Below, in pieces: positions 10,321-22,020 of a stretch of DNA of 22,020 nt; position 1 is the stretch's first letter, and every line of letters begins with the position of its first letter. This DNA comes from a virus. The stretch spans positions 1-22,020 of the IMG/VR virus record IMGVR_UViG_3300034407_001011. One strand, 5' to 3'. Below the pieces are notes generated by a model, which saw only the letters and a program-made list of their open reading frames with translations, was not told the origin of the DNA and searched no databases. The position numbers were made by a program, and so were the translations under genes.

Positions 10321-11055
10321 TTATAATGCATCTTTTATAAGATAATTGTACTTATTTAAAAATTCTTCTATTGTAGGAGCTGATTCTGGCATCAATGATA
10401 CAGTAACTCTCCTAGTTTCTATATTCTCTACTGAATGTAATCGTTGTGTATTAAACAAATGCCATTGTTCTTTCTCAAATTTATATTTTGCTATTGGTAT
10501 ACAGTCAGATACTTTTTTTATAAAAGGATCTTCAAAATTTTCAGTACGCACATCTTCATAGAAAATAGTTTGCACATTGCTACCACCTAGTTCTAATATT
10601 ATATTAACACTTGCTGCTTTTACTTTATCATAATGTGGTGGAAAAGATGCCAATCTATCTGTCTTATTACGCATAACACCTATAATAGGTACAATTGGTT
10701 CACCAAATATTTCACTATAAGCATCTAACTCTGGTGTTATTTCATCATAAGGATCAAAATTATGAGCCACACAATTAACTAAACCATTATTAAAATCGTT
10801 TATATAATCAGTTTTTCTATATGCTTGCTCCATCTTTCTACCAACATCACCAACTGATTTATTGTGTTCTTGTTGTGTTTTTGGTTTAGCTCCTAAACTA
10901 TCTGCAATACATTTATCTGCTTGTGCATGTTCTTCAAATGTTAAAGGCTCATCTAATGCCCATAGATTTGCCCACATCTTCATTTTTCTTTTTATAGAAT
11001 GTTCTAAAGGTGGAAGGTCTAGTTTATATGCTTTAAAAGATTCCTTGTGTATCAT
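10321..11055 (-). CDS. 2OG-Fe(II) oxygenase-like protein between terminase and sheath
   Basis: This is a probable 2-oxoglutarate/Fe(II)-dependent dioxygenase or a related double-stranded beta-helix protein of 244 aa. The C-terminal half shows the expected pattern. The segment FPPHYDKV near 138-145 supplies an HxD pair (His141, Asp143). 'VNIILELGG' and 'TIFYEDV' are core strands. 'LHSVENIETRRVTVSLM' near 206-222 supplies a second His (207) and the Arg (215/216) that would bind 2-oxoglutarate. The N-terminal 100 residues are helical and unrecognised. It overlaps the gp17 end by 23 bases, so it is co-transcribed with the terminase. T4 has no gene here. The target could be a virion protein or a nucleotide; nothing in the sequence decides. 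I am fairly sure of the fold, less sure of catalysis. Confidence 0.7.
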   Translation of the reverse strand: MIHKESFKAYKLDLPPLEHSIKRKMKMWANLWALDEPLTFEEHAQADKCIADSLGAKPKTQQEHNKSVGDVGRKMEQAYRKTDYINDFNNGLVNCVAHNFDPYDEITPELDAYSEIFGEPIVPIIGVMRNKTDRLASFPPHYDKVKAASVNIILELGGSNVQTIFYEDVRTENFEDPFIKKVSDCIPIAKYKFEKEQWHLFNTQRLHSVENIETRRVTVSLMPESAPTIEEFLNKYNYLIKDAL

Positions 11056-17197: not shown

Positions 17198-17530
17198 CTA
17201 CCTCGTTACACTTGGGTTAACTGTTACCAAACCTTCAACAACTCTTGATATAACAGAACTACCAGATGTGACTTTTACATCATAAACATATCTACCTTCA
17301 GTTATAGCTGCTGTATTTGCAGCATCCAACTGTAATGTTAGCTGTCCATTAGTACCACCATTAGATATGGTAAATGTTTTTGTGGCTGAGGATGAGGTAT
17401 GATGCTTTCTTATTTGTGCATTTGCGGTATAACCAGTTAAGTTAACAACATCTCCATTTGTATCCGTCACTGTAACAACCGTTTCAAATGTAGTTCCTTG
17501 GTCTATAAGGATATCAGCTCTGGCTGCCAT
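17198..17530 (-). CDS. BppU-N-type structural protein, 110 aa
   Basis: This is a probable baseplate/fibre-associated Ig-like protein. The whole length follows the pattern of the BppU N-terminal domain. 'ILIDQGTTFETVVTVTDTNG' lies near 7-26, 'VVNLTGYTANAQIRKHH' near 28-44 and 'NGQLTLQLDAANTAAITEGR' near 64-83. It ends with 'YVYDVKVTSGSSVISRVVEG' near 84-103. In siphophages this domain anchors receptor-binding complexes to the baseplate; here it stands alone. It is the first gene of the long late operon, with AGGAG about nine bases before the ATG and a late promoter upstream. Confidence 0.75.
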   Translation of the reverse strand: MAARADILIDQGTTFETVVTVTDTNGDVVNLTGYTANAQIRKHHTSSSATKTFTISNGGTNGQLTLQLDAANTAAITEGRYVYDVKVTSGSSVISRVVEGLVTVNPSVTR

Positions 17531-17563
17531 TGTAGTATACTCCTATTTAATATTAGATATATA

Positions 17564-17571
17564 TATTTATA
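17564..17571 (-). promoter_or_regulatory. T4-type late promoter (TATAAATA) for the 17530-10321 operon
   Basis: A perfect TATAAATA on the minus strand in the 77-base divergent gap. The predicted start near 17558 gives a leader of about 28 bases ending in AGGAG before the ATG at 17530. No other late box lies between genes until 10296, so it may drive twelve genes. The opposite strand of the same gap must hold the control of the glycosyltransferase cassette, where I see no late box and no clear sigma70 promoter. Confidence 0.82.
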
Positions 17572-17607: not shown

Positions 17608-18033
17608 ATGAAAAGAAATTCTAAAAAACAAGAAGTTCCTGAATATTTTAAACCAGCTCGTGGCACTATAATGGATTACTATAGATTAGTAGCTAATAAA
17701 CACAAGTGGGTAAATTATTTAGTAACTACTTATAGAAATACTTATGAAGGTTTTGATGATATATTCAAATTCAGATTAGCTTTAGATAAAAGAATACCAT
17801 TTGATTATGATGCTAAATTAAGAGAGCATGTTGTTAAAAAATCAAATCAAAAATATGTTAATCATGGACGTGATGGATTAGAAGAACATTTCTTTTTAGA
17901 AGATCACCATACAATGTTACATATTTTAGTTAGTAAACGTGTTGACACATTACAGTTAATGTATGATAATATAAAATTTAAAGAAGAAGTAGATTCATAT
18001 CTAACAATAACTAGAGACTTTTATTATGAATAA
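17608..18033 (+). CDS. Unrecognised 141-aa protein opening the plus-strand cassette
   Basis: I do not recognise this protein. It is basic and rich in aromatic residues and histidine, with no signal peptide or membrane segment. Helical stretches include 'GTIMDYYRLVANKHKWVNYL' and 'HHTMLHILVSKRVDTLQLMY'; an EEHFFLEDHHTM segment near 91-102 is acid- and His-rich. The start is well supported (AAAGGTGG about eight bases upstream). It overlaps the first glycosyltransferase-like gene by eight bases, so it is part of that cassette. Direction and lack of a late promoter suggest earlier expression than the structural genes. Confidence 0.75.
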   Translation: MKRNSKKQEVPEYFKPARGTIMDYYRLVANKHKWVNYLVTTYRNTYEGFDDIFKFRLALDKRIPFDYDAKLREHVVKKSNQKYVNHGRDGLEEHFFLEDHHTMLHILVSKRVDTLQLMYDNIKFKEEVDSYLTITRDFYYE

Positions 18034-18736
18034 TATATTCTGCGTTAAGACAACACCAGAAGATCCTACCATAAAAGACAAATATAGAGATAGTCATGTC
18101 TATGATTTGTATTGGCAACTAAAAAGACGTTATAAAAAGAAATTTAATTTTTATTTACTAACTAATCTTACTACTGTAATACATCCTGATATAAAAATTA
18201 TAGATGTAACAAAATATAAGTTAGATGGTTGGTGGAATAAAATGTTGTTGTTTCATCCTGAAATAGATAAAGAAGGTACAAATTTATATTTTGATTTAGA
18301 TGTAACTATTGATAGAGAAATAACTGATATAGATAAATTTATTACACCAGATAAATTAACATCTGTATATTGTTATTGGAAACCAATTGACTGGTTGGAT
18401 CTTAGTAAGCAACCTAAGAAGTTACAAGAAGATCCAAATATGCAGCACCCTTCATTTTTTAACACATCTTTTATGGGATGGCAAGGTGGTACTCTTTGTG
18501 ATATATGGAGAGACTTTAGTAAAGATCCTGAGTTTATAATGACAATGTACAGAGGTAATGATGATTACTTAGGACACCAATGGTTAAGATCACTCAAACC
18601 ATTACCAAGAGGTATTGTGTATTCATATTATTATGGTGCAGATGTTGGCTCAGAATTTTTTCCAAGAGATAAACAATCATATCAAAAAAGAGATGAATAT
18701 TATATAAGGTTATTAAATGGTCCAGGAAAAAATTAA
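18026..18736 (+). CDS. GT-A-type glycosyltransferase-like protein 1
   Basis: This is a probable sugar transferase using a nucleotide-sugar (236 aa). Visible family features, in order, are an N-terminal nucleotide-binding-type strand, 'FNFYLLTN' near 40-47, GWWNKMLLF near 68-76 and YFDLDVTI near 88-95. That last segment carries the DxD-type metal motif (FDLDV). Next come 'FFNTSFMGWQGG...DIWRDF' near 144-164, DDYLGHQWL near 179-187 and a C-terminal 'VYSYYYGAD' near 198-206. It shares all of these with the next two genes in the same order, so the three are paralogues. It lacks the 'ICVF'-like strand that ends the other two. The acceptor is unknown. The ribosome binding site is weak, consistent with coupling to the gene before. 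Confidence 0.8.
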   Translation: MNNIFCVKTTPEDPTIKDKYRDSHVYDLYWQLKRRYKKKFNFYLLTNLTTVIHPDIKIIDVTKYKLDGWWNKMLLFHPEIDKEGTNLYFDLDVTIDREITDIDKFITPDKLTSVYCYWKPIDWLDLSKQPKKLQEDPNMQHPSFFNTSFMGWQGGTLCDIWRDFSKDPEFIMTMYRGNDDYLGHQWLRSLKPLPRGIVYSYYYGADVGSEFFPRDKQSYQKRDEYYIRLLNGPGKN

Positions 18737-19475
18737 CTTAATAACTATTAAGTGGGGTGATAAGTTTGCAGCTGAATATCCTAACTTAATTCATAGAATG
18801 GCTAAACGTCATATGCCTTGTGAGTTTAATTCATATTGTATGACAGATAATCCAGCTGGTTTAGATAAAGATATTATTCCTGTAGAGTGTACAGAGAAAT
18901 GGTTATGGGATGATGTGGTTAATAATTGTCAGGGTCAAAAACAATGGTGGTTTTGGGATGCAATTAAAATGTCTTTATTTGCTCCTAGATTATGTGGTAT
19001 AGAAGGTAAAATATTATTTTCAGATTTAGACAACTTATTCTTAGGTGATTTAAGTAGAGTTGTACAAACTAAACCTCCAGCAATTATTGGAACTGATTGG
19101 AACCCTAAGTGGCATGTTCCTATGCATGGTGGTAATTATTTTCTTACTATGAGTTTTAATGCTAGTTTAATTTATGTTGACAACACTGCTCCTATAACAA
19201 ATAAAATATGGGAGCATTTTTTAAAACATTACAAAGCTGCTAAAGGTTCTTTGTATAGTAGTGATGCTTATCTATGGAGATGTCATAGAGATAAGATTAA
19301 TACATATCCAGAAGGTACAGTATATTCACATAGTAGAGGTGCTAAGTATCCAGATAAACAAAAAGCAAAGTACAGACCTGATCATGCTGTATGTGTTTTC
19401 ATGGAAGATCACGAACCAGATCCATTAGATATAAAAGAAGGTTGGGAGGCAGACATATGCAAGCAGTATCTTTAA
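18717..19475 (+). CDS. GT-A-type glycosyltransferase-like protein 2
   Basis: This is the second paralogue (252 aa). 'INLITIKWGDKFAAEYPNLI' lies near the start, with 'FNSYCMTDNPAGLD' near 37-50, QWWFWDAIKMSLF near 76-88 and FSDLDNLFLG near 101-110, which carries the DxD motif. 'NASLIYVDN' lies near 148-156, SDAYLWRCHRDKINTYPEGT near 182-201 and VYSHSRGAKYPD near 202-213. It ends with AVCVFMEDHEPDPLDIKEGW. The N-terminus adds about eight residues over the third copy. The ATG at 18717 overlaps the preceding gene by 20 bases and has AAGG seven bases upstream. It is longer in the middle than its neighbours and fairly diverged, so an old duplication is more likely than a recent one. Confidence 0.82.
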   Translation: MVQEKINLITIKWGDKFAAEYPNLIHRMAKRHMPCEFNSYCMTDNPAGLDKDIIPVECTEKWLWDDVVNNCQGQKQWWFWDAIKMSLFAPRLCGIEGKILFSDLDNLFLGDLSRVVQTKPPAIIGTDWNPKWHVPMHGGNYFLTMSFNASLIYVDNTAPITNKIWEHFLKHYKAAKGSLYSSDAYLWRCHRDKINTYPEGTVYSHSRGAKYPDKQKAKYRPDHAVCVFMEDHEPDPLDIKEGWEADICKQYL

Positions 19476-20134
19476 AAGTTGGTACAACATATAGTGCAAG
19501 ATATGTTAATCAATTATATAAACAATTAAAACATGCAGATCAAAGAATTGAGTTTACATGCTTAACAGATGATGCAGAAGGATTGAAGAAAGAAATAAAT
19601 GTAATACCAATAACGGATGACTTTCAAGATCGTAAATGGTGGAATAAAACTAAACTATTTAAACCAGGTTTGTTTAAAGAACCAACATTATACTTAGATT
19701 TAGATTGTTATGTACATCAGAAGTTTATAGATGAAGAGAAGCCTTGGGGGTTAGAACCTTTTTTTAATTGTTCTGTTAAAGACAAATTAAATATATTAAA
19801 AACATATTGGTTTAGTGAGGACACAGCAAAAAAGATACATCAGTGTGATATTAATAGCTCTATTATGGTTATTAATGAAAGTAATGGTGAACCAATGTGG
19901 AGAGATTTTGTAGATAATCAAGAGATGTTATATAAAAGTTTTTATGGATTAGATCCATGGCTATATAGAAGACATAGAAATAACTTAAACTTTTTTAAAC
20001 CTGGATTAGCATATTCATACAAACATGGGTGTGTATTTCCAGATGATGTAAAAGCTAATACATTTAGACAAATACCAATTTGTGTATTAGATGATGTTAA
20101 TGATAGAGGTGAAATTTTAGATGGATTGTGGTGA
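19457..20134 (+). CDS. GT-A-type glycosyltransferase-like protein 3
   Basis: This is the third paralogue (225 aa). It has 'VSLKVGTTYSARYVNQLYKQ' near 4-23, 'IEFTCLTDDAEGLKK' near 31-45, KWWNKTKLFKPG near 60-71 and LYLDLDCYV near 78-86, which carries the DxD motif. 'NSSIMVIN' lies near 133-140 with 'MWRDF' after it, LDPWLYRRHRNNLNFFKPGL near 165-184 and AYSYKHGCVFPDD near 185-197. It ends in 'PICVLDDVNDRGEILDGLW'. The frame is open from 19391, but I chose the ATG at 19457. It has GGGAGG seven bases upstream and restores the paralogue N-terminus; the upstream extension has no counterpart. It overlaps copy 2 by 19 bases. Confidence 0.83.
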   Translation: MQAVSLKVGTTYSARYVNQLYKQLKHADQRIEFTCLTDDAEGLKKEINVIPITDDFQDRKWWNKTKLFKPGLFKEPTLYLDLDCYVHQKFIDEEKPWGLEPFFNCSVKDKLNILKTYWFSEDTAKKIHQCDINSSIMVINESNGEPMWRDFVDNQEMLYKSFYGLDPWLYRRHRNNLNFFKPGLAYSYKHGCVFPDDVKANTFRQIPICVLDDVNDRGEILDGLW

Positions 20135-20720
20135 AGTACAAAGACTCTGGGTTAAAGGTTTAGGATACGTTTCAGATAAACACGTATATAAATTTAAAGA
20201 TTTTTCTGAATGTGTATTTGATACTCAGATACAAAGTAAAGATTGGCTATGTCATGAGTTAAAGAAAGTTGCACCCGATAACTTTAGTCATGTATCTATT
20301 CTTGCTGGATGGTATGGTATTGTTTTGATACCATTCTTATATCAAACATTTGGTGAAATAAATGTTGACCTTTATGATGTAGATGAATATACAACAGATA
20401 TAGCTGCACACATATTTAATGATTATCCTAAAGTAAATATTCATACTAAAGATGTAGTGTTTGATGATATAGATTACAAAGGACAAGTTATAATTAATAC
20501 TTCTTGTGAACATATGATGGACATGAGTATTATTACAGAAAAGTTTCCGGATAAATTATTTGTTTTACAAAGTAATGATAACGATAATGTTAAATGGTTG
20601 CATATCAATTGTGCTAAAGATACAGATGAATTAATTAAACAATCTGGTTTAAAAAATATATTATACAGGGGTGGTAAAACAATATACTACCATAAAAGAA
20701 TGATGGTGATTGGAACATGA
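20121..20720 (+). CDS. Class I SAM-dependent methyltransferase-like protein
   Basis: This 199-aa protein has a Rossmann-type methyltransferase pattern. 'VSILAGWYGIVLIPFLY' near 58-74 is the glycine-containing motif I after a hydrophobic strand. 'VDLYDVDEY' near 82-90 supplies the acidic end of strand 2, 'VNIHTKDVVFDDIDY' near 105-119 the third region, and 'GQVIINTSCEHM' near 121-132 the strand-4 motif. The region after it ('PDKLFVLQSND') fits strand 5. GAGGTGAAA precedes the ATG, which overlaps glycosyltransferase-like gene 3 by 14 bases. By context it could methylate the glycan or the same acceptor, but a nucleic-acid or small-molecule target cannot be excluded. The fold call is fairly good; the substrate is unknown. 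Confidence 0.75.
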   Translation: MDCGEVQRLWVKGLGYVSDKHVYKFKDFSECVFDTQIQSKDWLCHELKKVAPDNFSHVSILAGWYGIVLIPFLYQTFGEINVDLYDVDEYTTDIAAHIFNDYPKVNIHTKDVVFDDIDYKGQVIINTSCEHMMDMSIITEKFPDKLFVLQSNDNDNVKWLHINCAKDTDELIKQSGLKNILYRGGKTIYYHKRMMVIGT

Positions 20721-21100
20721 AGTTTGAAGTAAACGAAAAAGTATTTGCATTTACTATGTTGTTATATGGACAACAACTATTTGTTCAATTGTTTAATGAA
20801 GAAGAAGATAAAGAATGGAAATTAATACAACCTATATTAAAACAACTTCATGAAGGTTTAAAAGAAGAACATAGAAAGAAAGGTTATCAAAGAGCATTAG
20901 ATTATAGTGGTTCAAGACCTCCTGTGCTAACTGACTTTTCTGATTTGTGGTTTATTCTTTATTGTATCTCTAACTATAGAATCTTTTGGGTAGATTTAGA
21001 TTCTGATAAAAAAGAGTTAGAGATACTCAAGTATGCTTTAAATAATGTTGCTAAGAAATCACATAGAACATTTAGTGAATACAAATCAAGGCATATATGA
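20717..21100 (+). CDS. Unrecognised 127-aa protein ending the plus-strand cassette
   Basis: I do not recognise this protein. It is highly charged and probably all-helical, with 'EDKEWKLIQPILKQLHEGLK' near 35-54 followed by EEHRKKGYQRAL, and 'LWFILYCISNYRIFWVDLD' near 77-95. The start overlaps the methyltransferase-like stop as ATGA, so it is translationally coupled to it. The 3' end runs 15 bases into the convergent oxygenase-like gene. Confidence 0.7.
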   Translation: MKFEVNEKVFAFTMLLYGQQLFVQLFNEEEDKEWKLIQPILKQLHEGLKEEHRKKGYQRALDYSGSRPPVLTDFSDLWFILYCISNYRIFWVDLDSDKKELEILKYALNNVAKKSHRTFSEYKSRHI

Positions 21101-21850
21101 TGGGCTATCTTTTGGCAACATAGAAGGATCAAATGGTGCTAATGGCCATACCAGTTCTTTACCAGCAATATCTTCTACCATATTTTTCCATAAATCTTCA
21201 TTGTATACAACATAACCTAATGTCATTCTTGGTTCACCACCATAAGCACTATGCCACATAATTTTATCTTCTTCTTCCTTTTTACCATAATAGCCTGTCT
21301 TCATATGCCATCCTGGTACATCTGGTATGTGTACTAAATGTTTATCAAATGGTTTATTAATTTTACCTTTAGAACCTTCAGGATTAATATGTCTCCAAAA
21401 TCCATTACCAGTTTCTGTATATGTAAATAGAACATTGTATCCTGGTACATTCCAATTATTGTGCCATGCAATATATCCATCTTTTGGATACCACATCTTT
21501 AATGCACAAAACCTTATACCAAGTATTGATCCTAATTCATTGTCAAGCCATTGGCTTTTTTCTTGTATTGCTTTTGCATGTTCACTAGAATAATCATTTA
21601 GATCATCATGTTTAACCCATGTTGCTATTTGATTAAAATCATAGCCATGTGAGTCAGGTGGATATCCATCATGAGTATCATGTTCCATAGTACTCAAACA
21701 TTCTATACTTGTTGCATACTTAGACCTATTCTCTCTAAAGAACTTGCCTTTTCTTTTCATGAGTTGGTCCATGTCTAGTCCCCAGACAAAATCCTTCCAC
21801 TCATTTAATAATTTTAAAATCTCCGATTGTATTTCGTATACCGGGGTCAT
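21086..21850 (-). CDS. 2OG-oxygenase-like (cupin/hydroxylase-type) protein
   Basis: This is a probable jelly-roll dioxygenase-type protein of 254 aa, of a kind I know from marine phages. Likely metal-site residues are in 'DGYIAWHNNWNVPGYNVLF' near 124-142 (His130 with Asn132, an HxN rather than HxD/E) and IMWHSAYGGEPRMTLGYVV near 197-215 (His200, Arg208). Between them are 'TYTETGNGFWRHINPE' and 'HIPDVPGWHMKTGYYG', typical core strands. The N-terminal 110 residues are helical. AGGAG lies about nine bases before the ATG, and the gene overlaps the end of the one upstream by 50 bases. If HxN replaces HxD, metal binding may be altered. It is a different subtype from the 11055-10321 protein. It converges with the glycosyltransferase cassette. 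Confidence 0.75.
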   Translation of the reverse strand: MTPVYEIQSEILKLLNEWKDFVWGLDMDQLMKRKGKFFRENRSKYATSIECLSTMEHDTHDGYPPDSHGYDFNQIATWVKHDDLNDYSSEHAKAIQEKSQWLDNELGSILGIRFCALKMWYPKDGYIAWHNNWNVPGYNVLFTYTETGNGFWRHINPEGSKGKINKPFDKHLVHIPDVPGWHMKTGYYGKKEEEDKIMWHSAYGGEPRMTLGYVVYNEDLWKNMVEDIAGKELVWPLAPFDPSMLPKDSPSYMP

Positions 21851-22020
21851 CTAATGTGCTCCTATCTACTAAGTCGTTTGGTATTGTGTAATGCCAAAAT
21901 ACTATATTATCTTTTTCTGTTAATTCACGCTCAGGTCTATATCCTTTAACATAATTCCATTTAGCATGTATCTCTTTTATCTTTACACCGTAGTCTACAT
22001 TATAGTTAGTATTAAAGAAA
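21801..22020 (-). CDS. Partial gene running off the right edge, C-terminal 72 residues
   Basis: An open frame (codons from 22019 leftward) reads to a TGA at 21803-21801 and lacks its start. The visible part includes 'VKIKEIHAKWNYVKGYRPER', then ELTEKDNIVFWHYTIPNDLV and 'DDPGIRNTIGDFKIIK'. I do not recognise it. The 50-base overlap with the oxygenase-like gene, whose ribosome binding site lies inside this frame, suggests the two are co-transcribed. Codon use looks ordinary for the window. Confidence 0.6.
   Translation of the reverse strand, partial: FFNTNYNVDYGVKIKEIHAKWNYVKGYRPERELTEKDNIVFWHYTIPNDLVDRSTLDDPGIRNTIGDFKIIK

Follow-up and report, generated by a model that had tools for sequence, protein, structure and literature searches.

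What do the glycosyltransferase (GT)-rich host-recognition islands, common in abundant marine phages, decorate: the phage's own fibres or the surface of the host? GT clusters in phage host-recognition regions are already known, and those of pelagimyophages have been read as modifiers of the host O-chain (Zaragoza-Solas et al., PMC7029224). The cassette described here offers a defined system for asking this question. The window analysed is an entire viral contig of 22,020 bases, whose minus strand encodes the late module for head, neck and tail of a T4-like phage. Its gp17 is nearest to those of marine myoviruses (Methylophilales phage Melnitz and cyanophages), with 56-60% identity. At positions 17608-21100, the plus strand holds six genes in the order o1, GT1, GT2, GT3, MT, o6 (Table 1). 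They had been predicted to overlap head to tail, and all six reading frames do run in the same direction with overlaps of 4-20 nt. The start of GT3 was corrected from 19391 to the position given in the table, on the basis of a GGGAGG Shine-Dalgarno sequence just upstream and of the same start in relatives. Purifying selection acts on each of the six genes (dN/dS 0.04-0.27), and no transmembrane-like segment was found in any of their products.

Table 1. Coordinates of the cassette, its promoter element and flanking genes in the window, and of giant fibre-like genes in related contigs.
Feature	Coordinates	Strand	Remark
o17198	17198..17530	-	First gene of the divergent late operon leading into fibre-like and neck genes
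Palindromic late-promoter element TATATATATTTATA	17558..17571	both	Within the 77-nt o17198/o1 spacer
o1, orphan, 141 aa	17608..18033	+	Found in this cassette only; purifying selection
GT1, GT-A-type glycosyltransferase (by homology), 236 aa	18026..18736	+	phrog_1962, E 2e-8
GT2, GT-A-type glycosyltransferase (modelled), 252 aa	18717..19475	+	Most conserved member of the cassette
GT3, GT-A-type glycosyltransferase (by homology), 225 aa	19457..20134	+	phrog_1962, E 2.8e-13
MT, class I SAM-dependent methyltransferase fold, 199 aa	20121..20720	+	Structure model
o6, orphan, 127 aa	20717..21100	+	Found in this cassette only
r7, conserved flanking gene, 254 aa	21086..21850	-	No family match
GT4 C-terminal fragment, glycosyltransferase-like	21801..22019	-	Cut by contig end
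Giant fibre-like gene, L048	2874-11000
Giant fibre-like gene, L048	11024-18730
Giant fibre-like gene, L043	10210-17391
Giant fibre-like gene, L049	2117-11848

The three GTs had been proposed as tandem paralogues, and profile-profile comparison (hhalign) places their kinship far beyond chance, with E-values of 2e-27 for GT2-GT3, 1.7e-25 for GT1-GT3 and 3e-10 for GT1-GT2. All three match the phage glycosyltransferase family phrog_1962 (GT2 at E 0.0019, the others as in Table 1). The ordered motifs behind the original prediction are also real: each orthologue set has an invariant DLD and NxS strand, and WW(N)K is likewise invariant in GT1 and GT3, its counterpart in GT2 being W-W/Y/F-FWD..K. In a tree that includes the GTs of distant phages, GT1, GT2 and GT3 each form their own fully supported clade, GT2 and GT3 being sisters (99/89) and GT1 separate; the three are thus old, distinct enzymes rather than the outcome of a recent triplication.

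Structure prediction, which had been suggested as a check of the GT-A fold, makes this fold credible for GT2. At E about 3e-5 and probability 1.00, its model resembles two kinds of solved GT-A enzyme, glycogenin (GT8) and the ABO enzymes GTA/GTB (GT6). Model confidence is modest (mean pLDDT 60, pTM 0.66), query TM-scores are about 0.33-0.51, and the matches do not fix the exact GT family. GT1 and GT3 would be of GT-A type by homology; the GT3 sequence profile had no match at E<=1 among solved structures.

For MT, the predicted structure is of good quality (pLDDT 86, pTM 0.85) and gives 649 PDB matches at E<=0.001, the best 50 of which are nearly all class I methyltransferases. The methyltransferase-like assignment is therefore upheld: by its model, MT has the class I SAM-dependent methyltransferase fold (Rossmann-like, SAM-binding). 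The structural matches span N-, O- and C-methyltransferases as well as nicotianamine synthase, and the substrate class cannot be read from them. At the sequence level, MT had no match in Pfam or NCBIfam, its profile had none at E<=1 among solved structures, and a pattern search of a bacterial and archaeal genome collection yielded no confirmed homologue. The two proteins originally left unrecognised, o1 and o6, remain without recognisable relatives outside the cassette, their profiles giving weak, chance-level matches only against solved structures. No known anti-phage defence gene was detected with the PADLOC models at E<=0.01.

The cassette is present in about 30 viral contigs. In every relative with an uncut contig, the six genes are complete and in the same order, even where protein identity drops to 28-45%. 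Conservation is highest in GT2 (65-99% identity in relatives), and the lowest values are 28% for o1 and about 42% for GT1; no orthologue of o1, GT2 or o6 was found outside the cassette. With a GT-A fold modelled for GT2 and a fixed co-occurrence of the genes, neither a foreign fold nor a scattering among relatives speaks against the original prediction.

Some relatives carry insertions in the cassette or at its head. Most of the distant group has radical-SAM and Asp/Asn-hydroxylase-like or TauD-like genes before o1. At this head, an Asp/Asn-hydroxylase-like gene (PF05118 in L017) and a radical-SAM gene (PF04055) are found in L017 (4344-5811), L021 (7275-8769) and L043 (2724-4224), and L018 has instead a radical-SAM gene and a TauD-type oxygenase. 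Between MT and o6, some relatives hold phosphate-uptake-type genes or a gene for a 480-aa protein. The phosphate-uptake-type genes differ at this one position (L021 12140-13129, L028 12063-12548, L025 12122-13081), being PBP-like/PstS-type with Pfam support, or NptA-like and PiT-like by eye. An Fe-S assembly protein can likewise be encoded between GT2 and GT3.

The orientation of the cassette is less constant than its order. It was originally described as lying on the strand opposite to the late module, which is true of the window; in L012-L016, the cassette as a whole is flipped between its flanks, as compared with the close relative L038, and is there co-directional with the late genes. A switchable segment was considered and rejected, since the cassette borders have no inverted repeats, only scattered pairs at chance level; the flip thus looks like an evolutionary inversion.

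The window has four copies of the T4-type late promoter TATAAATA, each of them on the late strand and no more than about 62 nt from a late gene. In relatives, its density upstream of genes is about 25 times that in coding sequence. One perfect copy (8/8, 17564-17571, minus strand) lies upstream of o17198. Fused to it on the plus strand is TATATATA (17558-17565), which matches TATAAATA at 7/8 and faces the cassette, contrary to the original view that no late promoter was present. In such 100-nt stretches, chance alone is expected to give a best match of 7/8 in about 14-29% of cases and of 8/8 in 1-2%, so the plus-strand site of the window is weak by itself and the relatives carry the argument. 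The whole element is conserved in six window-type loci, its core TAAATATATTTATA is invariant in 15 loci of the distant group, and L029, L030, L042 and L043 have an 8/8 late promoter on both strands. In the flipped cassettes where the junction is present, o1 starts right where r7 stops, which leaves no room for a promoter, so that the cassette is most simply read as a continuation of the late genes on the fibre side. The promoter motifs and the flip jointly favour late expression of the cassette.

Beyond these relatives, at least 556 distant viral relatives of MT were confirmed. Among 39 non-redundant distant loci, picked by MT alone, a GT of the cassette's family lies directly beside MT in 33, and 37 have one no more than two genes away; the corresponding rate for the other ORFs of these loci being beside such a GT is 13.7%. 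The distant MT-GT pair often occupies the slot between two tail-fibre gene groups, which is the slot of the cassette in the window. In one large distant group, the order is giant fibre, p282, GT4, r7, GT (antisense), MT, o17198, fibre, gp13. The cassette, with its six genes, resembles a more elaborate form of this minimal pair. That the pair recurs in marine phages so distant from one another suggests that the mechanism is general and not a local peculiarity. Limited literature searches yielded no earlier description of the fixed unit of six genes, of the widespread MT-GT pairing or of the late promoter facing both ways. Three distant loci (L077 7342-7950, L090 7306-7938, L104 7348-7947) encode, between GT and MT, a protein of about 200 aa with a sulfotransferase-like P-loop (for example GSPRSGSTA) seen by eye; it had no Pfam match and is a lead only.

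Taken together, these observations are best explained by a late glycan-assembly module whose acceptor is, most likely among the readings weighed but with a little under even confidence, the phage's own tail-fibre or adhesin proteins. The constant association of three distinct GTs, each with its DxD kept, and one MT points to a methylated glycan that is short and defined. Three soluble GT-A enzymes would build it, acting in sequence, and MT would methylate the glycan or its attachment site. The donors are likely to be nucleotide sugars of the host, since six relatives, all of them fragments, showed no sugar-nucleotide epimerase. The acceptor proteins would be encoded on both sides of the module, and their decoration might tune receptor binding or shield the fibre.

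A virion acceptor is favoured by the late signals, by the slot between fibre groups, kept over great divergence, and by a parallel in phage P1. PmgQ of P1 shares the WWxK and YLDLD motifs with the cassette GTs and is a relative of GT1/GT3. Its gene belongs to a late operon that runs away from baseplate gene 26, and the late promoters of the two overlap. It stands with pmgO and pmgP and without an MT, whereas the cassette has three tandem paralogues, an MT and two orphans. If the acceptor is the virion, the glycosylated capsids of the mycobacteriophages Che8 and Rita, with their phage-encoded GTs (Freeman 2023, as reported in PMC11256854), offer a working analogue; the account given there concerns other hosts and capsid proteins as acceptor. 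Against a fibre acceptor, fibre-adjacent positions also accumulate accessory genes, pmgQ is dispensable in P1 (PMC10695390), the GT2 model has a low pLDDT, and the promoter evidence is motif-based.

The strongest competitor, which we consider only somewhat less probable, is that the cassette remodels the host surface glycan (LPS or capsule), which would block competing phages or prevent re-adsorption of progeny to debris. This is how the GT-rich pelagimyophage clusters have been interpreted (PMC7029224), and the cassette has the position of such a cluster, between fibre genes and the neck gene gp14 of a T4-like marine phage, with multiple GTs and, in some cases, radical-SAM genes nearby. That cluster is described as non-syntenic, whereas the cassette keeps a six-gene order in about 30 contigs. 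Six relatives, all fragments, showed no CsgG, a curli marker that most groups of pelagimyophages are reported to have. The Pelagibacter phage Mosig EXVC030M encodes both enzymes, a GT that matches the GT1 profile at E 8e-22 and an MT at E 6e-18, but in separate clusters, at about 125 kb and about 68 kb of its record, respectively. The GT8/GT6-like model of GT2 and the soluble look of the enzymes would suit LPS sugar transferases, which are often soluble, and a late enzyme could still be useful by keeping progeny from being lost on debris. On the other side, the cassette holds no flippase-, polymerase- or membrane-type partner. Serotype-conversion gtr operons have a membrane flippase (GtrA) and a membrane-anchored GtrB, whereas the cassette proteins are free of transmembrane-like segments and have no Pfam match. 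The absence of a confirmed MT homologue from the bacterial and archaeal collection searched also counts against a host target, and the late expression indicated by promoter and flip would come late for superinfection exclusion.

An unlikely, more specific proposal starts from the fibres themselves. The fibre-like proteins of relatives are giants of 2,700 residues and more, the longest reaching about 3,200 aa. About one residue in four is aromatic, at regular spacing (YTKIWSKDYVKNY...), Tyr makes up roughly 10-19%, and some of the proteins have a tip-like stretch rich in Gly. The repeat of distant phages is YxGx and nearly free of Lys; whether the repeat is YxKx or YxGx goes with cassette size, but this link is confounded with clade. 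Glycogenin attaches sugar to its own Tyr, and the cassette may similarly belong to a post-translational-modification island for the giant Tyr-rich fibre encoded beside it, in which the GTs would sugar the Tyr (or Ser/Thr) of the repeats, while MT and the relatives' radical-SAM enzyme and Asp/Asn-hydroxylase-like protein would add further marks. We know of no example of so heavily modified a phage fibre, and the literature, with the terms tried, yielded no report of a tyrosine-rich repeat fibre in a marine phage.

The genes flanking the cassette are of related interest. Three residues of r7 are conserved (H130, H200, R208), which suggests a two-His oxygenase; its profile had no match in Pfam or PDB, and the gene is also found in the fibre slot of very distant phages. 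The GT4 profile gave weak glycogenin matches among solved structures (E about 0.04), below an unrelated bacteriohemerythrin (0.0035).

Also improbable is a loose accumulation of accessory genes without a common pathway. The host-recognition region of pelagimyophages is a hypervariable, non-syntenic island (PMC7029224), and phosphate-uptake-type genes do enter the cassette in some relatives. This reading is opposed by the order kept in all untruncated loci despite the protein divergence, by the overlapping reading frames, by the confinement of o1, GT2 and o6 to the cassette, and by the MT-GT neighbours of the distant loci.

Modified DNA, also listed among the original targets, is very improbable: phages, with T4-like phages as the classic case, do glucosylate DNA and could use the cassette against restriction, but T4 DNA glucosyltransferases have a GT-B fold whereas GT2 models as GT-A, no thymidylate-synthase-fold hydroxymethylase (PF00303) was matched in three relatives including a 128-kb record, all incomplete genomes, and the three GTs and MT stand among fibre genes rather than nucleotide-metabolism genes.

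Other genes in these contigs also deserve mention. The 128-kb relative (L046, 4307-18916) has, far from its cassette, a radical-SAM run with a carbamoyltransferase-like gene, which recalls a cluster in phage Mosig. In the window, a 244-aa gene (10321-11055, minus strand) lies between gp17 and gp18, is only 37% identical in the close relative L006, and its product shows oxygenase-like motifs by eye, without a family match. At the edge of the late module, the minus-strand gene at 12-545 matches the pyrimidine-dimer DNA glycosylase family (PF03013, E 1.5e-9).
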